Source: Bacteroidales bacterium
GTDB lineage: Bacteria; Bacteroidota; Bacteroidia; Bacteroidales; UBA932
DNA: 64,000 nt
Reading direction: 5' to 3'
Assembly: GCA_017509685.1 (NCBI GenBank)
Contig: JAFWPA010000009.1
Location: forward strand, 140,351 to 204,350
Below are positions 46,345-63,115 of the stretch, piece after piece. Position numbers and translations under genes: made by a program. Positions within the stretch are counted from its first letter, which is position 1, and each line of letters starts with the position of its first letter. The notes under the pieces are model-generated. The model was not told where the DNA came from, did no database searches, and saw only the letters and a list, made by a program, of their open reading frames with translations.

Positions 46345-47070
46345 CTATTGCTGGTCTATTCCCCGCCGAATGTCGTAGGAGTCGGCCACCAGGTGCTTGG
46401 TCATGCGTTTCTGCGCCTTCTTCAAGGCCCAGAAGCAGCCCAGGAGGATAACCAGGGAGATGACGCCGCTGAGTTCCGGCGTAACTGCTGCCGTCATGGC
46501 GATGGTGTCATAGATACCGTGGGCCAGCACCGGATACAGCCACATCTTGAGGCCGGCGCCCGGAGCGCGGTACTTGTCAAAGTGGTTGAGGGAATAATAA
46601 TAGCCCATGATCACGGCAAAGGCGAAATGGCCGGGAATGGCGGTAAGGGACCGGCCGATACCGGTAGTCACCCATGCGGAACCGGCAGCAAACAGGTATT
46701 CGATGTTCTCGAAGGCCGCGAAGCCCATTCCCACGCACACAGCGTACACAATACCATCCATGCGCTCGTCAAAGTCCCTGCACTTGCGCAGGAACAGCCA
46801 CAACAGGAACAGCTTGGCCGATTCCTCCGGAATAGCGGCGCCGAAAAACGCCGTGCGGAAGGCATCCCCAATGGACTGAATTTCCGCCGGAAACAATCCT
46901 ACCCGCATGGACGGAATGGAAATGAACAGCGATGCAAAGACGGACAGGCAGCCGAAGAAGAAAGCCTTCACCAGGTTCTTGGTGGGTTCCCGCTGCAGCT
47001 TATCCTGCTGATACGTGTAATAAATCAAGATGAGGGCTGGCAAAACCGCCAGGGCAACTACTGTTAGCAT
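46345..47070 (-). CDS. PrsW-family intramembrane metalloprotease
   Basis: 241 residues with seven to eight hydrophobic segments. The PrsW motifs are visible: IPEESAK (EExxK), GFAAFENIEYL (FExxxY) and HGIYD (HxxxD), plus AIPGHFAFAVIMGYY. PrsW proteases cut anti-sigma factors in the membrane in Bacillus; the target here is unknown. The frame is open 60 codons upstream, but the ATG at 47070 gives the standard N terminus and follows a TATTTTTG box (47095-47088). It converges on the AraC-type regulator gene. Confidence 0.85.
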   Translation of the reverse strand: MLTVVALAVLPALILIYYTYQQDKLQREPTKNLVKAFFFGCLSVFASLFISIPSMRVGLFPAEIQSIGDAFRTAFFGAAIPEESAKLFLLWLFLRKCRDFDERMDGIVYAVCVGMGFAAFENIEYLFAAGSAWVTTGIGRSLTAIPGHFAFAVIMGYYYSLNHFDKYRAPGAGLKMWLYPVLAHGIYDTIAMTAAVTPELSGVISLVILLGCFWALKKAQKRMTKHLVADSYDIRRGIDQQ

Positions 47071-47087
47071 ATCCAGTTTCTTTTCCG

Positions 47088-47116
47088 CAAAAATACGGAA
47101 AAATCCTTTATCTTTG
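47088..47116. promoter_or_regulatory. Divergent promoter pair prsW-like (-) / aro operon (+)
   Basis: TATTTTTG on the minus strand (47095-47088) and TATCTTTG on the plus strand (47109-47116). The latter ends 6 bases before the aroB ATG at 47123, so the aro operon message is nearly leaderless. No trp/tyr-type leader peptide or attenuator is present upstream of aroB. Confidence 0.55.
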
Positions 47117-47122
47117 TATTCT

Positions 47123-48088
47123 ATGACGGAGGAATTGATACAGCCGGCCGATGTTGTGGCCTGTCTGGCCCGCGAACCGGAAGTGTTTGTGGTGTTTGAC
47201 CAGCATGTAGAGTGGGTGGTCAAGGACCTTCCCTGGCCCAAGCATCCCATCTACACATCCGAGGCCCTCAAGACCCTGAGCACGGCAGAGGATATCTGCC
47301 GATGGCTCATGGAAGCCGGCGCCTCCCGCAGCGCCCTGGTTCTGGCCGTGGGCGGCGGTATCACCACCGACATCGCCGGATTCGCCGCGGGCATCTATAA
47401 GCGCGGCATCCGCTACGCCAACCTGCCCACCACACTGCTCTCGCAGGTGGATGCAGCCATCGGCGGAAAAACCGGCGTAAACCTGGACGGCTACAAGAAT
47501 ATGCTGGGCGTCTTCCGCATGCCGGAGGTCACCTTCCTCTGTGCCGATGTCCTTCGCACCCTCCCCCGCCGCGAATTCCTCTCCGGCCTGGCCGAACTCC
47601 TGAAAACCTTCCTGATTGGAGACGCCGGGGCTTATCGGCAAGCCCTCAAGGGCGTTACGCAGGAACTGATTGCCAGGGCGGCGGAGATTAAGGCCGATAT
47701 CGTGGCACAGGACCCCGAGGAGCACGGCATACGCGCCAAACTGAACCTGGGCCATACCTTCGGGCATGCCATCGAGCACGAGGCCCGCTTGCGCGGAGAC
47801 GACATCTCCCACGGGGAGGCCGTGGCCATGGGTATCATCCTGGCGGCGCGGCTGTCGGAAGCCCTGGGTATCGGCGAAAAAGGTCTTGCACAGCAGCTGG
47901 AGGCCGATTTCCAGGCCGCCGGCTTGCCCACCCGCTGTCCCTACCCGCTGGCAACCCTGAAAGAGGCCATGGGCAAGGACAAGAAGGCCCTGGGCGGCGG
48001 AAAGGTGAAGTTTGTGCTGCCCGTCAAGCCCGGAGAGGTAGTCTTCCATGAAATGAATCCCTATGATTTGCACTTCGATACAGAATAA
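47123..48088 (+). CDS. aroB: 3-dehydroquinate synthase
   Basis: 321-residue enzyme of the shikimate pathway, converting DAHP to 3-dehydroquinate with NAD and a divalent metal. The NAD-binding LAVGGGITTDIAGFAAGIYKRG-type block, the IGGKTGVNLDGYKNMLG loop, and the metal ligands in GLAELLKTFLIGD and NLGHTFGHAIEHE are intact. It starts directly after a promoter and overlaps the fusion gene by 26 bases, the beginning of a four-gene coupled operon (aroB, aroD-aroA, aroC, CDF). AroB itself is a metalloenzyme (Zn or Co), relevant to the metal theme of the operon. Confidence 0.95.
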   Translation: MTEELIQPADVVACLAREPEVFVVFDQHVEWVVKDLPWPKHPIYTSEALKTLSTAEDICRWLMEAGASRSALVLAVGGGITTDIAGFAAGIYKRGIRYANLPTTLLSQVDAAIGGKTGVNLDGYKNMLGVFRMPEVTFLCADVLRTLPRREFLSGLAELLKTFLIGDAGAYRQALKGVTQELIARAAEIKADIVAQDPEEHGIRAKLNLGHTFGHAIEHEARLRGDDISHGEAVAMGIILAARLSEALGIGEKGLAQQLEADFQAAGLPTRCPYPLATLKEAMGKDKKALGGGKVKFVLPVKPGEVVFHEMNPYDLHFDTE

Positions 48089-50045
48089 GGAACTGTCCCA
48101 GATCCAGGCCCTGCTGCAGCAACTGGAGATGGCCGAAATCCGCCTGGACCGCTGCGCCCTGGAGGAAGAGGATGTGGACCTGCTCTTCGGAGAATCCGAC
48201 GTCCCGCTCATCGCCACCTGCCGCCTGGCCGAGGAACCCCAGGCCCCGGAAATCCTGGAAAACGCCATCCAGGCCGGCGCCAAGTACGTGGACCTGGAGA
48301 TGGAGGCCCCCGCCGCCGTGGGCCGGCGCATCCGGGAAGCCTGCCGCTCCTACGGAACCGTGCTCATCCGTTCCTACCATAATTATGAATGTACGCCGCC
48401 GCGGGAGGTGCTCCTTTCCATCCTGGAGCGCGCCCGCACGTTTGGCGGCGAAGTGGTGAAAATTGTCACCACGGCCACTTCCCCAGCCGATAACGATATT
48501 ATCTTAAGCCTCTATGAAACGACCGCTCCCGGCACGCTGGTGGCTTTCTGTATGGGAGAAGCGGGCCGGCCTTCCCGGATGGAAGCCCTGAAACGGGGCG
48601 CACCCTTCACCTATGCCTGTTTAAGCCAGGAAGAGGCCACGGCCCCCGGCCAGTGGACCACTGAGGAGATGCAGCAGGCCCTGTACGACGATTTCCGCTT
48701 TGTCCGGGCCCAGAACCTGCCCATGCCATCTTCCAAGAGTTTCGCCCAGCGGGCCATCATCGCCGCCGCCCTTGCCCAGGGAACTTCCCGCCTGGACGGC
48801 TATTCGCCCTGCGGGGACAATGAGAGCGCTCTGGCAGCCGCCAGGGCCCTGGGAGCCCGGATTGAGGTAAAAGGGAACACTCTTGTCATAGATGGAATCG
48901 GTGCCCGGCCCGGATGCCTGAACCTGACCGAACTGCACACCGGAGAGTCCGGCTTCCTCACCCGCCTGATGATTCCGCTGCTGGCGGCGTTATCGGAAAA
49001 GCCGGTTCGGGTAACGGGAGAAAAGACGCTGCTTCAGCGCCCGCTTACCAGCGCACACGATATTATGGCCGCTTTCGGCGTGCGGCTTTATCCGGAAAAT
49101 AACACCAATGTCAGCGACGACAGGAAGGTAGACTGCTACCTCCCGCTCAAGGTGGCGGGCCCGCTGATTCCCGGACGGGCCGATGTCTCCGGAAAGGGCG
49201 GCTCGCAGCTCATCTCCGGCCTGCTGGCCGCGCTGCCGCTGATGGACGGCAAGTCCACCGTGTACGTGCACGACCCCCGCAGCATCCCCTACCTGTTCAT
49301 AACGGTAGACGTGCTTAAGAAATTCGGCATCCGGATGGGCAGCGAGATGGAAGGCGACGACGAATTCATGGAAACCCAGGACTGGAGCCTGTGCACCGGC
49401 CTCAACTTCCATATCAAGGGCGGCCAGCGGTATCAGGCGGCCGATTTCGCCATCGAGGCCGACTGGTCCGGCGCCGCACCCTTCCTCACCGCGGGCGCCG
49501 TCTTCGGCGATGTGGAGGTCACCGGCCTGGACACCACCAGCTTGCAGGCCGATATCTCCATCCTGGACATCCTGATGCAGGCCGGCGCCAGTATGTCCCA
49601 ACTGGACGAGCCCACGGGCAGCATCCACATCAAGCGGGCGCCCCTGAGCCCCTTCAACGCAGACCTGAACAACTGCCCGGACCTCTTCCCCATGGTGGCG
49701 GTCCTGGCGGCCTTCTGCCCCGGCGAAAGCCATATCCTGGGCGTGCAGCGCCTGCGCCACAAAGAGACGGATCGCGCGCAGGCCATCGAGCAGATGCTGT
49801 TGCAGATGGGCGTCCCGGTAAGTATAGACGACGACCAGATGACCATCACGGGCATGGGGCTAAGCCAGCGCCTGGCCACCGGTCATCTCCTGAAAGGCGG
49901 TAACTACGCGTCCCACGCCGACCACCGGATGGTGATGGCCCTGAAAGTAGCCTCCCTGGGAGCCGACAGCCCGGTTGTCATAGACGACACCACCTGCGTA
50001 GCCAAGTCCTTCCCCGGTTTCAACGAATTGTTTGACAAGCTATGA
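48063..50045 (+). CDS. aroD-aroA: Bifunctional type I 3-dehydroquinate dehydratase / EPSP synthase fusion
   Basis: 660 residues joining two shikimate enzymes. Residues 1-215 are a type I (Schiff-base) dehydroquinase with His106 (SYHNY), Lys133 (VVKIV) and the closing PGQW loop. Residues about 217-660 are EPSP synthase: PSSKSFAQRA (K225, R230), GESGFLTR, NCPDLFPM (D540) and RLRHKETDR. Both active sites look complete. The fusion skips shikimate dehydrogenase and kinase, whose genes are not in the window. It starts inside aroB and ends 4 bases into aroC, so all products are translated together. Confidence 0.9.
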   Translation: MICTSIQNKELSQIQALLQQLEMAEIRLDRCALEEEDVDLLFGESDVPLIATCRLAEEPQAPEILENAIQAGAKYVDLEMEAPAAVGRRIREACRSYGTVLIRSYHNYECTPPREVLLSILERARTFGGEVVKIVTTATSPADNDIILSLYETTAPGTLVAFCMGEAGRPSRMEALKRGAPFTYACLSQEEATAPGQWTTEEMQQALYDDFRFVRAQNLPMPSSKSFAQRAIIAAALAQGTSRLDGYSPCGDNESALAAARALGARIEVKGNTLVIDGIGARPGCLNLTELHTGESGFLTRLMIPLLAALSEKPVRVTGEKTLLQRPLTSAHDIMAAFGVRLYPENNTNVSDDRKVDCYLPLKVAGPLIPGRADVSGKGGSQLISGLLAALPLMDGKSTVYVHDPRSIPYLFITVDVLKKFGIRMGSEMEGDDEFMETQDWSLCTGLNFHIKGGQRYQAADFAIEADWSGAAPFLTAGAVFGDVEVTGLDTTSLQADISILDILMQAGASMSQLDEPTGSIHIKRAPLSPFNADLNNCPDLFPMVAVLAAFCPGESHILGVQRLRHKETDRAQAIEQMLLQMGVPVSIDDDQMTITGMGLSQRLATGHLLKGGNYASHADHRMVMALKVASLGADSPVVIDDTTCVAKSFPGFNELFDKL

Positions 50046-51097
50046 ATACATTTGGAAACAAATTCAGGATCAGTATTTTCGGCGAATCTCACGGGCCGCG
50101 TATCGGCGTTACCGTAGACGGTGTACTGCCCGGCATCCCGCTGTGCGAAGAGGACTTCGCCGAGGACCTGGCCCGCCGCAAGGCTGGCGCCCTGGGCACC
50201 ACACCCCGCACGGAAGACGACTTCCCGCAGATAGTCTCCGGCGTGTATGAAGGCCATACCACCGGCGCTCCGCTCACCATCCTCTTCCGCAACGAGAACA
50301 CGCGGTCGGAAGACTACGAGGGCTTCCGGGAGCATCCGCGTCCCGGCCACGCCGATTTTACCGCCAACCTCAAATACGGCGGCTTCAACGATCCCCGCGG
50401 CGGTGGCCATTTCAGCGGTCGCATCACGCTGGGCGTGGTGGCGGCGGGCGTCGTCGCCAAGAAAATGCTGTACTTCGCCAAGTTCCATGCCCAGCTGGTG
50501 GAAGTGGGCGGGCTGGCAGAAGCATCGGCCTGGCCGGATGCCCTGAAAGCTGCACAGGCCGAGGGTGATTCCCTGGGCGGCGTAGTGGAATGCACGGTGG
50601 AGGGGCTTCCCATCGGCCTGGGAGAACCCTTCTGGAACAGCGTAGAATCCCTGGTTTCCCATGCCATTTTCGCCATTCCCGGCGTACGCGGCATCGAATT
50701 CGGCGACGGCTTTGCCGCTTCCCGCATGAAAGGCTCCGAGCACAACGACCCCTTCCCGGAGCACAAGTGCCACCACGACGAACCGGGGCACCAATGCTGC
50801 CACGGGGAACATGAAGAAGGCCACCAGTGCTGCCACGGGGAGCACGAGGAAGGCGGCGAGCACCACTGCTGCGGCCGGCACAAGCCCCCCCAGCCGCCCG
50901 TGACCAACCATGCCGGCGGCGTGAACGGCGGCATCACCAACGGCAACCCGCTGGTGTTCCGCGTGGCGTTCAAGCCCACCGCCAGCATCGCCAAGGCAGG
51001 CATCCCCGGGCGCCACGACGTTTGCTTCGCGCTGCGCACGCCCGTGATTGTAGAGGCCATGGCCGCCATCGTCCTCACAGACCTGGCACTGGGATAA
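50042..51097 (+). CDS. aroC: Chorismate synthase with a His/Cys-rich insertion
   Basis: 351-residue FMN-dependent enzyme making chorismate from EPSP. Family blocks include SIFGESHGPRIGVTVDG, RPGHADFT, GGFNDPRGGGHFSGR, ASRMKGSEHNDPF and TNHAGGVNGGITNG. Between the last two (about residues 239-286), where relatives have about a dozen residues, sits an insert with 7 Cys and 12 His. It contains an 11-residue tandem repeat GHQCCHGEHEE (249-259 and 260-270) and a third CC at 276-277. The rest of the enzyme is complete, so it is probably active. The insert looks like a metal-binding loop; the coupled downstream gene is a metal exporter. Confidence 0.92.
   Translation: MNTFGNKFRISIFGESHGPRIGVTVDGVLPGIPLCEEDFAEDLARRKAGALGTTPRTEDDFPQIVSGVYEGHTTGAPLTILFRNENTRSEDYEGFREHPRPGHADFTANLKYGGFNDPRGGGHFSGRITLGVVAAGVVAKKMLYFAKFHAQLVEVGGLAEASAWPDALKAAQAEGDSLGGVVECTVEGLPIGLGEPFWNSVESLVSHAIFAIPGVRGIEFGDGFAASRMKGSEHNDPFPEHKCHHDEPGHQCCHGEHEEGHQCCHGEHEEGGEHHCCGRHKPPQPPVTNHAGGVNGGITNGNPLVFRVAFKPTASIAKAGIPGRHDVCFALRTPVIVEAMAAIVLTDLALG
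50786..50851 (+). repeat. 33-bp in-frame tandem repeat within aroC
   Basis: Two head-to-tail 33-base units (50786-50818 and 50819-50851) encode identical 11-residue His/Cys units but differ at several third-codon positions. The duplication is therefore not fresh; the protein repeat has been kept while codons drifted, which points to selection on the amino acids. Confidence 0.8.
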
Positions 51098-51981
51098 TGA
51101 AACGGGAGAAGGAAATAGAGCACGTAACCCTGGTGGGGAGCGTGGTGAACCTGCTGCTGGTGGGCCTGAAAGGCGTAGCCGGCATCGCGGGGAACTCCGC
51201 CGCCATGGTGTCCGACGCCGTGCATTCGCTGTCGGACTTTGTGACGGACATCGTGGTGCTCATCTTCGTTCGTGTGAGCGGACGGCCGCAGGACGAGGAT
51301 CACGACTACGGCCACGGCAAGTATGAAACGCTGGCCACGCTGCTCATCGGCCTGGCGCTGGCTTCGGCCGCCGTGGGTATCGTGGTCTCCGGCGCCGGAA
51401 AATTGGCCGCCTGGCTAAAGGGAGAGGAACTCCCCGCTCCGGGCAAGATGGCCTTGTGGGCGGCGCTCATCTCCATTGTGGTCAAAGAACTCCTCTATCA
51501 ATATACGCGAATCAGGGGGCGGAAACTGAACTCCCCGGCCCTGGAGGCCAACGCCTGGCACCATCGCTCGGATGCGCTGAGTTCCATCGGCGCGGCCATC
51601 GGCATCGGCGGTGCCATCTTCCTGGGCAACCGCTGGACGGTGCTGGACCCGCTGGCTTCCATCGTGGTGGGCGCCATGCTGGTGAAGGTGGCCTGGGACC
51701 TGCTGGGCCCCAGCTTCGGCGAACTCACCGACAGCTCCCTGCCGGCGGAAACGGAGAACCGGATGCTGGAAATCATTGGCGGCATCCCCGGGGTGGAGGA
51801 CCCGCACAACCTGCGCACCCGGCGCGTGGGCAACCGCATCGTGGCCGAGGTCCACATCCGCCTGGACGGCAGCCTGCCCCTGGCCGAAGCCCACGAGAAA
51901 GCCACGGAGGTAGAACGGCGCATCAAAGCGCAGTTCGGACAGAATTCCCACATTATCGTCCATATGGAGCCCCGGAAATAG
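51097..51981 (+). CDS. Cation diffusion facilitator (CDF) family metal transporter
   Basis: 294-residue inner-membrane exporter with six helices and a cytoplasmic C-terminal domain. The TM2 metal site is HSLSD (HxxxD, following MVSDAVHSLSDF) and the TM5 site is HHRSD (HxxxD, ANAWHHRSDALSS). HD/HD composition is more typical of zinc-type than of Fe/Mn-type CDFs. HDYGHGKYETLA is a family block. The ATG shares a base with the aroC stop (TAATG), so it is translationally coupled to the His/Cys-rich chorismate synthase. A terminator hairpin overlaps its stop codon. Confidence 0.92.
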   Translation: MKREKEIEHVTLVGSVVNLLLVGLKGVAGIAGNSAAMVSDAVHSLSDFVTDIVVLIFVRVSGRPQDEDHDYGHGKYETLATLLIGLALASAAVGIVVSGAGKLAAWLKGEELPAPGKMALWAALISIVVKELLYQYTRIRGRKLNSPALEANAWHHRSDALSSIGAAIGIGGAIFLGNRWTVLDPLASIVVGAMLVKVAWDLLGPSFGELTDSSLPAETENRMLEIIGGIPGVEDPHNLRTRRVGNRIVAEVHIRLDGSLPLAEAHEKATEVERRIKAQFGQNSHIIVHMEPRK

Positions 51982-51994
51982 GGCTCCTTTTTTT
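51966..51994 (+). terminator. Terminator of the aro-CDF operon
   Basis: 7-bp stem (51966-51972 with 51981-51987), overlapping the CDF stop codon, and a run of seven T. It ends the plus-strand operon directly at the convergent receptor gene. Confidence 0.75.
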
Positions 51995-54365
51995 ACATTC
52001 TGGCTTTCTGGTCGGCGCCGGCGCCGGTACCCTTATACTTGCTTTGAGCGGTGTTGAAGCTGTAGCGGATAGAGAATTTCACCTTCTGCGTGTCCATGTT
52101 GTTGGTTTGGGTGATGGTGTGGCTGCCGAAGTCGGTATCCACATTGTAATGGGCCCTGTAGATCAGGTCGGCCCCTTCCAGGCGCAACACCAGGGATCCG
52201 TCCTTGAGCAGGGTTTTCTGGATGGCCGCCGTAATATCTATGTAAGGACTGGTGAGCAGGACGTTCTGGGTGTAGCCCGGCGTCTGGATGGTACCGCCCA
52301 GTTCAAACTGCCAGCCTCCCTTTACAGTGACCGTGTTGAAGAGCTGAGCAAAGACAATGGGCTTACCGTTGAAGTTCACCATCCGTTTTCCAGAAGGAGT
52401 GCGGGGATCTTCCATCTCCAGGGAGAACCACTGCGGCATCAGCCCCACGGTGTAATTCAGGGTCCAGGGGCCCACGGTGGGCGTGATATTCACCATCGCT
52501 TGCAGGTTGCGGTAGGGCTCGGTCACGTTACGGGGTTTCACCAGCACCACGCCGTCGTCGTTGTAAGGCGTGCTCCACATCATAATGCAGTCGTCGGTGC
52601 GTGAATAGTTCACTATAAAGGTGATCCACTTGTATACGGCGGTGAGGCCGAAGTTCTGGGAAACTTCCGGCTGTAACTGCGCGTTGCCGCTCTGCCAGAT
52701 ATAACGGCTATTGTAGCGGATGGCGCTGGAAAGCATGGAATAGTTGGGACGGCGCGTCTTGGCGCTGTAGTTGAGCATCAACTGAACCGGACCGAAAACG
52801 TTGGCATACGAAAAAGTCGGGAACAAGTTGTTGTAAGAACGGGAAAGGTTAAGGGAAGGATTCACAATGTCCTCGTAGGCATAGCGCACGTGCTCAAAGC
52901 GCACGCCGGCGCTCATTTGGCCCACCCGGGGGATGTAGCAACCGTAGGAGGCAAACGCAGCAATGTTATCCTCTTTCACCATAGCCTGCGACGAAGGGAT
53001 TTCAATCCCCACAATGGAATAATTGTCTGTTCGGCGAGAGAAGGTTTCTTCTGTGCCGGCCTGCAGCTGCCCCGTCCAGAGGGGATAGGAAAGCACCGCC
53101 TTGCCGGCGAACATCCGGGAACCGCTGCCGCTGACCGAGGCAATGGCGGCGTCGTGTGTCATTGTGCTGTTTTCGGCCGATTCCGACCTTGTGGAAGACC
53201 GGGTGCCATAGTAATCCAAGTTCACGTCCACGCCCAGTTTCCCGCCGATGAGACCATTATAGTAAAGGTTGGCACCCAGGTTGAAGGGGGCTTCGACGCC
53301 AAGTACGTCGGTGGAAAGGGTGGACAACTTGTCCACAAGGATGCTGTTTTCGTAAACGTCTGTGTTAATCAGGGTAGTTCCGTCGTTCTGCAAGGTTCGT
53401 CCCCACTCGACTTTTCCTCCCACGAAGTGATTGTCGGCAATCTGCCAGTTCACTCCGGCGTTGCCATAGACAGACTGAGCGAAAGCCTGTGCGTCAATGG
53501 TTCCCTTGTTCTCAAAGACATTGAGAGCGCCGTTCTTGACGGAATAACTGGCCGTGCCGGCGTCGCTCAACTGACGGGCGGTTTCGCGGGCATAGTTGAC
53601 GCCGCCGAAGATGTCCACCCCGCCGGTGCGGTAATTCAGGTTAATGCCGCCGTTTACGTTGTTGCCCTTGGCCCAGCGCAGGGACTGGGCGTCGGAGGCG
53701 TTCAGGTTGAAGCCGAAGCCTTCGCCTTGGCGACGGATGGTTTTGATGCGCACCACGGCCCGCACGGTGGCATCGTACTGCGCACCGGGGTTGGTAATCA
53801 CTTCAATACTTTGGATCTCATTGCTCTGCAGGCGCTGGAGCTCGGTGGCATCTGTGACGCGCCGGCCGTTGATGTACACCAGCGGGGAACCCTTACCAAC
53901 CACCTCCAAGCCATTTTGAGTCTTGATGATGCCCGGCGTTTTTGCCAGCACGTCGTTGGCACTGCCCACATTCTCCAGCACAGAACCGCGGACGGCCGTT
54001 TGCAGCCCCTCTCCGGTAATCTTGGTCTTGGGCATAAACGCCGTTGCAACAGCGCTCTCCAGCATGGCTGTATCGTCCATCAGGGTGATAATCATGCCGT
54101 CCATGGGGGCCAGATACACGGTCTTGTAGCCCAGCATGGCCACCATCATAATGCCGTCGGTCTCGGTGGTTACTATATTAAAGGTACCGTCTTCTTCCGT
54201 GACGGCGCCGCATACCATGATGGAATCGGCCTTGGACAGCACGGCCACATTGGCGTAAGCTACCGGTTCACCGCTTGCATCCACTACTTTTCCTTTCCAG
54301 TCTTTCTTGGCAAAAGCCGAGAGGGAGACCAGCAGCATCAGGGTAAGAGCAATCCAGTTTTTCAT
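51993..54365 (-). CDS. TonB-dependent-receptor-like outer-membrane barrel protein
   Basis: 790 residues. Signal peptide (to about SAFA), a carboxypeptidase-regulatory-like domain (about 20-100, KGKVVDASGEPVAYANVAVL), a plug (about 115-220 with VLENVGSANDVLAKTPGI and VYINGRRVTDATELQRLQ) and a long barrel ending in IRYSFNTAQSKY-type strands. It matches the outer-membrane barrel receptor family without SusD partners, so substrate is open: siderophore, metal or peptide. It converges on the CDF gene, has its own TACCTTTG promoter (54404-54397) and is monocistronic. Confidence 0.85.
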   Translation of the reverse strand: MKNWIALTLMLLVSLSAFAKKDWKGKVVDASGEPVAYANVAVLSKADSIMVCGAVTEEDGTFNIVTTETDGIMMVAMLGYKTVYLAPMDGMIITLMDDTAMLESAVATAFMPKTKITGEGLQTAVRGSVLENVGSANDVLAKTPGIIKTQNGLEVVGKGSPLVYINGRRVTDATELQRLQSNEIQSIEVITNPGAQYDATVRAVVRIKTIRRQGEGFGFNLNASDAQSLRWAKGNNVNGGINLNYRTGGVDIFGGVNYARETARQLSDAGTASYSVKNGALNVFENKGTIDAQAFAQSVYGNAGVNWQIADNHFVGGKVEWGRTLQNDGTTLINTDVYENSILVDKLSTLSTDVLGVEAPFNLGANLYYNGLIGGKLGVDVNLDYYGTRSSTRSESAENSTMTHDAAIASVSGSGSRMFAGKAVLSYPLWTGQLQAGTEETFSRRTDNYSIVGIEIPSSQAMVKEDNIAAFASYGCYIPRVGQMSAGVRFEHVRYAYEDIVNPSLNLSRSYNNLFPTFSYANVFGPVQLMLNYSAKTRRPNYSMLSSAIRYNSRYIWQSGNAQLQPEVSQNFGLTAVYKWITFIVNYSRTDDCIMMWSTPYNDDGVVLVKPRNVTEPYRNLQAMVNITPTVGPWTLNYTVGLMPQWFSLEMEDPRTPSGKRMVNFNGKPIVFAQLFNTVTVKGGWQFELGGTIQTPGYTQNVLLTSPYIDITAAIQKTLLKDGSLVLRLEGADLIYRAHYNVDTDFGSHTITQTNNMDTQKVKFSIRYSFNTAQSKYKGTGAGADQKARM

Positions 54366-61841: not shown

Positions 61842-63115
61842 TAGTATTCTATGGTTCTCTTCAGCGAGCCGTTTTTGACTTCTCCGTTGGGACCGTCTAT
61901 GGCAATCATATAGGTGGTCTTGTAGGAGATCCAGTTACCGTGACTGTCATATTCGAACTCCCAGGTTGTGGGACGGGTCCAAGGCTGGTCTGAGTCTTCG
62001 TTGAAACGCTCCTGCATCTCGATCAGATCACCGGCCTCATTGTATTTAAAGCTTTCCCAGTAACCGAAGACAAACAGGGCGTCGTGCGGCTTTCCGGGCT
62101 GGCAGTCCCATCTATTGGTGCAGATATAGCGCTTCTGGTTGGGGTCGAACTGGGTTATGCCGTCCGGGCCTTCCATCTTGAGGGGCATTCCATTGTCGCG
62201 CCAGGTAATGGATGAAATTTCGTAGAGCACTTGGCCATTCACTGCGACTGTGCCGGAAACGGGATAGTTATTCTGGTATACGATGGGATTGTCATAAGTG
62301 ACAGTATAATTCTCTTCACTGTCAAGGATATCTCCGACTTCTCCTGTTTCAATGTTGTATGCCCTGGAATACTGATGGTAGGAATATTCCATGTTTCCAT
62401 CGGCATTGAACACATATTCAAAGTCTGTAAAGCTTCTGGAATCCGTATTGATATCACTGTCGTTCACCAGCTGGATCTTGGAAAGATCCTTCATGATCAG
62501 GGCGGTACCATTCATATCTACGTCATGCTCGGAGAAGGATTCGGGATCCAGTTTACGGAAGGCATAAAAACTGGAGAAAAATGAATCGTCCGGACGTACC
62601 CAGACATATTTTCCGGGATTATTATACTCGTATGTCCAGACTTCGAGGCTAGCCCATTTGTCAAAGTCCATGCCGCCTTTCTCCTTGCTGCGGCCAAATA
62701 TCTTCTTGATAAGACGGTTATTGTCGTCATAGATGCGCTGTTCCATCCATTCTCCGCGCGCATTGCTTGGATCGACATCACGGATGATGGTGATGTTGCC
62801 GGCTTCATTATATTCGTACTCCCTGTGGGCCGAAGAACTGGACAGATACCATTTCTTCACGGGACCGCGGAGACCGGCCTTCTCCCGGTCGGAACGGGCC
62901 CAGTAATTCGTTTCGTACCAGGCTTCGGGGGTAAAGTCCGTTGTGCTACCACCGGGATTCGTCCCACCACCGGGGTTCGTTTCTCCTCCGGGATTGGTCT
63001 CCCCTCCGGGATTGGTCTCCCCTCCGGGAGGGTTCTGGTTCTGTTCGGGTTGTGAAGCAGGGGTACAGGCAAAGAAAAGGGCCCCCAGCAGGAGTAATAC
63101 GACAGTACGGTTCAT
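61838..63115 (-). CDS. Lipoprotein with Pro-Gly-Gly repeat linker and YD/RHS-like beta repeats
   Basis: 425 residues, lipobox Cys17 (ALFFAC). A hydrophilic linker made of six-residue PGGETN-type units (about 29-57) is coded by a near-perfect 18-base tandem repeat. The following region has repeats of the form REYEYNEAGNITII and WTYEYNNPGKYVWV, like YD/RHS-type strands (E-Y-x-Y-N-x-x-G). It is probably an exposed surface protein; the linker likely varies in length by slippage. Monocistronic, with a TATATTTG promoter (63145-63138). Specific function unknown. Confidence 0.65.
   Translation of the reverse strand: MNRTVVLLLLGALFFACTPASQPEQNQNPPGGETNPGGETNPGGETNPGGGTNPGGSTTDFTPEAWYETNYWARSDREKAGLRGPVKKWYLSSSSAHREYEYNEAGNITIIRDVDPSNARGEWMEQRIYDDNNRLIKKIFGRSKEKGGMDFDKWASLEVWTYEYNNPGKYVWVRPDDSFFSSFYAFRKLDPESFSEHDVDMNGTALIMKDLSKIQLVNDSDINTDSRSFTDFEYVFNADGNMEYSYHQYSRAYNIETGEVGDILDSEENYTVTYDNPIVYQNNYPVSGTVAVNGQVLYEISSITWRDNGMPLKMEGPDGITQFDPNQKRYICTNRWDCQPGKPHDALFVFGYWESFKYNEAGDLIEMQERFNEDSDQPWTRPTTWEFEYDSHGNWISYKTTYMIAIDGPNGEVKNGSLKRTIEYY
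62949..63033 (-). repeat. 18-bp tandem repeats coding the PGGETN linker
   Basis: About four to five copies of an 18-base unit in the N-terminal linker region of the lipoprotein gene; the middle two are identical. Whole-codon unit length keeps the frame when copies are gained or lost. Confidence 0.75.

Follow-up and report, generated by a model that had tools for sequence, protein, structure and literature searches.

Introduction

Stretches rich in histidine and cysteine on housekeeping proteins are of a kind already known. In Helicobacter pylori the chaperonin HspA (GroES) carries one as a nickel-linked C-terminal tail, and Hpn of the same species is a free small protein, acidic and rich in both residues, with an EEGCC unit (available part of PMC5312948).

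We describe an insert of this type inside chorismate synthase (AroC), found in a window of 64,000 nucleotides, the whole stretch of DNA analysed, from the genome of a Bacteroidales bacterium (GenBank assembly GCA_017509685.1). As in HspA and Hpn, it is dense in His and Cys with CC units and is absent from most homologues, being present in 21 of the 147 AroC loops that could be read across the genus. Like Hpn it is acidic, and it has a similar small unit (EEGHQCCHGEHEE), although no homology is claimed. Whereas Hpn is a protein of its own, the insert is part of AroC and has no Pfam or PDB match of its own. Whereas the HspA extension is a tail, the insert is an internal loop of a biosynthetic enzyme; its metal binding is predicted, and it exists in many sequence versions. 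The 21 insert-bearing genomes (completeness 55–98%) also differ from Helicobacter in giving no sign of service to nickel enzymes, with neither NiFe hydrogenase (PF00374, 0/21) nor urease (PF00449, 0/21) detected.

Chorismate synthases of known structure (PDB 1um0, 1qxo, 1r52/1r53 and 7rca) have the catalytic fold and the conserved blocks in common with the AroC of the window, but in three alignments 7rca, 1r52 and 5z9a have about 1–12 residues between the matched blocks, against 48 extra residues here. Among the open-licence papers listed by our searches, a body of literature without most subscription journals, none dealt with a metal-binding insert in chorismate synthase. Apparently new, at least to us, are three things: that such a stretch lies within an enzyme of biosynthesis, that it turns over while its ligand density stays even, and that it takes up dispersed repeats.

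Our preferred reading, to which we give a probability of about 0.5, takes the insert to be a flexible loop that binds metal, is under selection for its Cys and His content and buffers metal on a working AroC.

The aroC gene and its insert

The genes around aroC, and the parts of its insert, are as follows.

47030..48088, + strand: aroB (PF01761 and PF24621), upstream of aroC, overlapping the next ORF
48063..50045, + strand: aroD-aroA, type I 3-dehydroquinase (PF01487) and EPSP synthase (PF00275) fused in a single 660-aa ORF between aroB and aroC, overlapping the aroC start
50042..51097, + strand: aroC, chorismate synthase, 351 aa
50756..50899, + strand: His/Cys-rich insert, AroC residues 239–286, 48 aa
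50756..50785, + strand: 5′ part of the insert, PEHKCHHDEP
50786..50818, + strand: unit 1, GHQCCHGEHEE, 33 bases
50819..50851, + strand: unit 2, GHQCCHGEHEE, 33 bases
50861..50884, + strand: 3′ part of the insert, HHCCGRHK
51097..51981, + strand: cation diffusion facilitator (CDF) exporter (PF01545 and PF16916), with a start codon that overlaps the stop of aroC

The first-pass annotation of this DNA had counted 7 Cys and 12 His in an insert that separates the conserved GSEHND and TNHAGG blocks of AroC, and its coordinates correspond exactly to residues 239–286, which also hold 10 Asp/Glu and 3 Lys/Arg. The two units differ at five bases, every one at a third codon position and synonymous, as that annotation had said. 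Its description of the loop as metal-binding-like agrees with the composition and motifs, which match those of metal-binding tails. To set a background, Cys+His was counted in 43,645 windows of 48 residues from all six frames of the window DNA, using stop-to-stop stretches of at least 100 codons; the mean is 2.5 and the 99.9th percentile 12. At the place of the insert the count rises to 20, whereas no other stretch exceeds 12.

Outside the insert the protein is a normal AroC, again as first annotated: family match, fold and conserved residues all agree. It matches PF01264 at 327.4 bits (cut-off 27) over the full profile (positions 1–327 of 327). An AlphaFold2 model, made from a 60-sequence input gathered here, has a mean pLDDT of 84.2 and a pTM of 0.84, and searched against the PDB it retrieves 28 chains at E ≤ 0.001, chorismate synthases without exception, with TMq up to 0.78. 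Among 60 aligned AroC proteins H17, R46, R100, R127 and D326 are invariant and H103 nearly so; by motif, we take H17, H103 and D326 to be the active-site His and Asp residues named in papers on chorismate synthase. Within the insert, residues 251–278 fall below a pLDDT of 50, and this part reads as disordered in the model.

Searched alone, the window's insert matches nothing in Pfam or the PDB at E ≤ 10, and two longer stretches match only PF01264 in Pfam, weakly, at the same cut-off. Nothing in either database at E ≤ 10 supports placing the insert among the metallothioneins or in another known family of metal-binding domains. No second copy of the insert was found at E ≤ 10 in the window's own genome, which is 79% complete.

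Distribution of the insert

Two samples were used. The first scan took one genome per species and the best 80 of 544 loci, and one of its six query peptides came from the insert itself, so it does not give a frequency; its loci are for the most part from metagenome-assembled Bacteroidales. The second was a genus sample of 161 genomes, of which 153 had an AroC match, 150 were mapped and 147 gave a readable loop. Left out of the genus count are G070, G084 and G117, with fragmentary or unlisted matches, and G005, G025 and G033, whose loop was not shown. With flanking blocks counted in, the loops are bimodal.

His/Cys-rich, 21 of 147: 40–104 residues, Cys+His 12–37
Short, 122 of 147: 9–33 residues, Cys+His 0–4
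Long without His/Cys, 4 of 147: 54–78 residues, Cys+His 1–3; L259 (genome G017), L198 (G096), L211 (G073) and L230 (G170)

The first-pass annotation would have given up its reading had the insert been missing from all relatives and present only as an artefact; the 21 His/Cys-rich genus loops show that it is present in relatives. Alignment with AroC of other Bacteroidales, which it had proposed, finds the insert in a minority of genus loops and in 42 distinct versions of 18–92 residues. An assembly artefact was rejected because related inserts occur in many independently assembled genomes.

The DNA pattern for CCHGEHEE occurs in 20 of 400 genus genomes, and at each of the 10 loci examined it lies in AroC. 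At the level of the order, a query made of insert plus flanks found matches in 140 of 149 genomes; apart from the window's own, these start at query positions 36–61 of 88, the insert being positions 10–57. No insert was seen in other genera among the best-scoring 7 of the 139 other order loci, all of which have short loops.

Nine His/Cys loci of the first scan (L006, L011, L014, L015, L019, L021, L025, L027 and L028) name a gut compartment in the record title, which is rumen, reticulum or abomasum throughout; several insert-less records derive from those organs too. In one AroC (L010) the insert comes to just 18 residues, among them 2 Cys and 4 His. Two loci, L020 and L116 (genome G204), have a stop codon within the His/Cys insert, either genuine or a sequencing error.

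Phylogeny

A quick tree was built from the AroC core with the loop removed, using 147 rows and 7 outgroup rows. Eighteen of the insert-bearing rows form a main clade in which every row has the insert (18/18, SH-aLRT 91), and a separate clade of three rows, with support of 100, has it in every row as well. Both clades adjoin relatives with short loops. Forcing all 21 insert rows together costs 42.6 log units and is not rejected (AU p 0.118). One origin or two are thus possible for the insert, with this tree favouring two.

Selection on the insert

The 42 distinct His/Cys AroC proteins were chosen by a Cys+His count of at least 8, flanks included. Their inserts are 18–92 residues long with a Cys density of 0.141 (sd 0.010) and a His density of 0.246 (sd 0.038); length and Cys number are tightly correlated (r = 0.96), and CC occurs in all 42. 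Unit copying may be part of the cause of the even Cys density. Two motifs recur too: the start is of the type xxP[E/V][E/H], e.g. PFPEH, in 36 of the 42, and the pattern CC[GFH][RSHKN]H, seen in the 3′ part of the window's insert, occurs in 36 of the 42. Codons for Cys and His make up 0.388 of the inserts in the reading frame and 0.003–0.121 in the other five frames.

Constraint on the exact residues was estimated from pairs of inserts. The three pairs among the gap-free 72-residue inserts of L064, L065 and L084, near relatives from the three-row clade and outside the window's clade, have 17–19 synonymous against 2–4 non-synonymous differences (pN/pS 0.03–0.06). For the window's own clade, 19 pairs among the 25 listed (of 133) give a pN/pS of 0.00–0.50 for the insert against 0.05–0.19 for the core; here the inserts are unequal in length, and the protein-guided alignment lowers pN/pS. 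Since the range extends higher than that of the core in spite of this downward bias, the exact residues of the insert appear less constrained in the window's clade than the AroC core.

Repeat pairs within a single insert, picked by DNA identity, occur in 19 of the 42 inserts. Their window offsets are divisible by three in 530 of 530 cases, and they show 192 differences at third codon positions against 63 at first and 57 at second positions; the changed codons are 107 synonymous and 104 non-synonymous. Between whole inserts, six equal-length pairs at 60–100% identity retain 50 of 55 Cys, 75 of 88 His, 71 of 86 Gly and 49 of 65 Glu. From these retention counts and the steady Cys density we conclude that, as far as the sequences tell, the order and length of the insert drift while its ligand content stays.

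Dispersed repeats in the AroC loop

A 27-bp repeat that reads CHSERSEES is present in 18 of the 21 insert-bearing genomes, at 0–67 sites per genome when up to one mismatch is allowed. It stands nearly unaltered in the AroC inserts of L004, L005, L007, L017 and L249, and variants in which Q, H or D replaces R are found in those of L002, L244, L011, L013 and L009. The six of the 21 genomes that have a CHSE-type unit in AroC carry 5–67 copies (G028 49, G062 38, G149 67, G150 34, G171 5 and G178 43), with the AroC copy included among the matches listed for G028, G149 and G150. The other 15 carry 0–15 copies (one-sided Mann-Whitney p 0.001, a statistic that ignores kinship).

The repeat is thus multi-copy and dispersed, and it lies in frame within unrelated genes. 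In the window's own genome (G000) it reads CHSERSEES in an ORF of 878 codons for a class I tRNA synthetase (L123, C42:39091-39117), between PF00133 and PF08264, the catalytic and anticodon-binding domains; by its motifs we take the enzyme to be isoleucyl-like. No strong hairpin was found in the 27 bp (−4.6 kcal/mol, z −0.54, with 50 of 200 shuffles equally good). Rickettsia palindromic elements are likewise repeats inserted in frame in genes, as this one is in AroC and the class I tRNA synthetase ORF. They differ from the 27 bp considered here, which have a weak stem, another sequence and another host. Among the papers that a literature search listed, none was on this repeat.

In another lineage of the genus there is a second, different repeat, present in 7 of 8 genomes at 0–19 copies. 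It lies in frame in the same AroC loop of G017 and, in the opposite orientation, of G073, and there it brings no enrichment in His or Cys.

These repeats suggest an account without function, in which a tolerant loop is a place where selfish or neutral dispersed DNA lands and multiplies, its His/Cys content being useless. The 27-bp repeat inside several inserts, its higher copy number in the genomes with CHSE units, the landing of another repeat in the same loop of another lineage in both orientations and the looser constraint on residues among the window's clade members all favour it. The near-equal numbers of synonymous and non-synonymous codon changes in the DNA-picked repeats, the shrunken insert of L010 and the stop codon in G204 count against the buffer reading as well. 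We nevertheless judge such useless expansion unlikely, given the synonymous bias and even Cys density; moreover, six members that branch early within the main clade (L119, L248, L240, L235, L243 and L241) have no CHSE unit, and, to judge from the long loops poor in His and Cys, landing of repeats by itself does not make a His/Cys loop. Because those early-branching members of the quick tree are without the unit, the dispersed repeats are probably later additions to the insert rather than its origin.

A combination with the preferred reading of a metal-binding loop is also conceivable: AroC would have become a metal buffer, and mobile-like 27-bp repeats that landed in frame would have been reworked into Cys/His units, their R giving way to Q, H or D. 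We hold this only tentatively and consider it doubtful. The Q form also has at least five copies outside aroC in G150, and it may have landed ready-made, which counts against the reworking step. If the account were true, junk repeats would have become a metal-binding domain of an enzyme that is essential, and the steps could be seen in species alive today; with their units CHSERSEES, CHSEQSEES and CHSEHGEES, related inserts would then show dispersed DNA repeats turning into protein parts.

Proposed function

Under the metal-buffer reading, the Cys-Cys-His units, set in an acidic, glycine-rich chain, would bind soft or borderline ions, and AroC would act as a passive cytosolic metal buffer, in the manner of the HspA extension of H. 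pylori. The ligand content would count for more than the exact sequence, hence the turnover of unit order and length. The cargo would most likely be Zn(II), with Cu(I) or Fe(II) next; zinc is a first guess from chemistry alone. For a published peptide close to these units, EEGCCHGHHE, binding of Zn(II) has been set against that of Ni(II), and CC is a better Zn(II) ligand than CH or HC (available part of PMC10221980). Nickel appears less likely as cargo because neither of the two nickel enzymes sought was detected in the 21 insert-bearing genomes, though their incompleteness weakens this argument. What the data show is the insert, its occurrence throughout a clade, its even Cys density, its synonymous bias and the low confidence of the model there. 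Metal binding, the identity of the metal, the buffering role and the continued activity of AroC are all things that we infer.

Bound metal might instead order the loop beside the flavin and substrate region and so switch or stabilise AroC, coupling the supply of chorismate to metal status. The insert does bridge two conserved blocks, it is a large local change in a genus where most loops (122/147) are short, and substrate binding is described as altering the conformation of chorismate synthase (available part of PMC3509576). A precise switch is hard to square with varying length and unit order, and no confident structure is predicted for the insert, so we consider metal control of the enzyme unlikely. 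For the same structural reason, we found no support for metal sensing by the loop or for a tuning of chorismate output, as suggested in the first-pass annotation.

If the buffer reading is right and metal is bound, rumen bacteria have given an enzyme of the aromatic pathway a second job, that of storing metal. The loop comes in about forty natural versions of near-equal Cys density, on which ideas about the evolution of disordered metal buffers could readily be tested.

Gene neighbourhood

Among the ORFs of loci L001–L081, a CDF exporter beside aroC was matched at E ≤ 10 only at the window's own locus (L001), and no metal-handling neighbour of aroC is conserved among these loci, which speaks against the buffer reading. 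A functional link between the CDF gene and aroC was considered and dropped, since the CDF gene occurs at no other locus of L001–L081 within the stretch covered. At L003 its place after aroC is occupied by a repeat-like low-complexity stretch (L003:7149-7784), which ends before a gene resembling that at 51993–54365 of the window.

Immediately 3′ of aroC at L004, L006, L007, L008, L011, L015, L022, L072 and others lie genes that we take, by name, to be sufB-, pnuC- and sufC-like. Such downstream genes are also found in some insert-less genomes. Of 20 insert-bearing genomes whose sequence runs on for 700 bases or more past aroC, 12 have a presumed sufB-like gene downstream, on the aroC strand and no more than 3.5 kb away, against 25 of 119 genomes with short loops (Fisher p 0.0007) and 0 of 4 with long loops without His/Cys; the counts are lower bounds, as the stretches vary in length, and the Fisher test ignores kinship.

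This association would fit a Cys-rich loop that carries iron or electrons, for instance keeping FMN reduced or passing iron to the neighbouring SUF system. Chorismate synthase requires reduced FMN, and some of the enzymes reduce FMN themselves (available parts of PMC2386126 and PMC3509576). We regard a redox or iron module as highly improbable, however: common descent may account for the sufB association, and in the window it is the CDF gene, not a sufB-like one, that follows aroC. The CC and CH units, rich in His, are moreover unlike the usual ligands of iron-sulfur clusters.

Further along the window, at 62952–63029, an 18-base unit is repeated 4.3 times with 85% matches.
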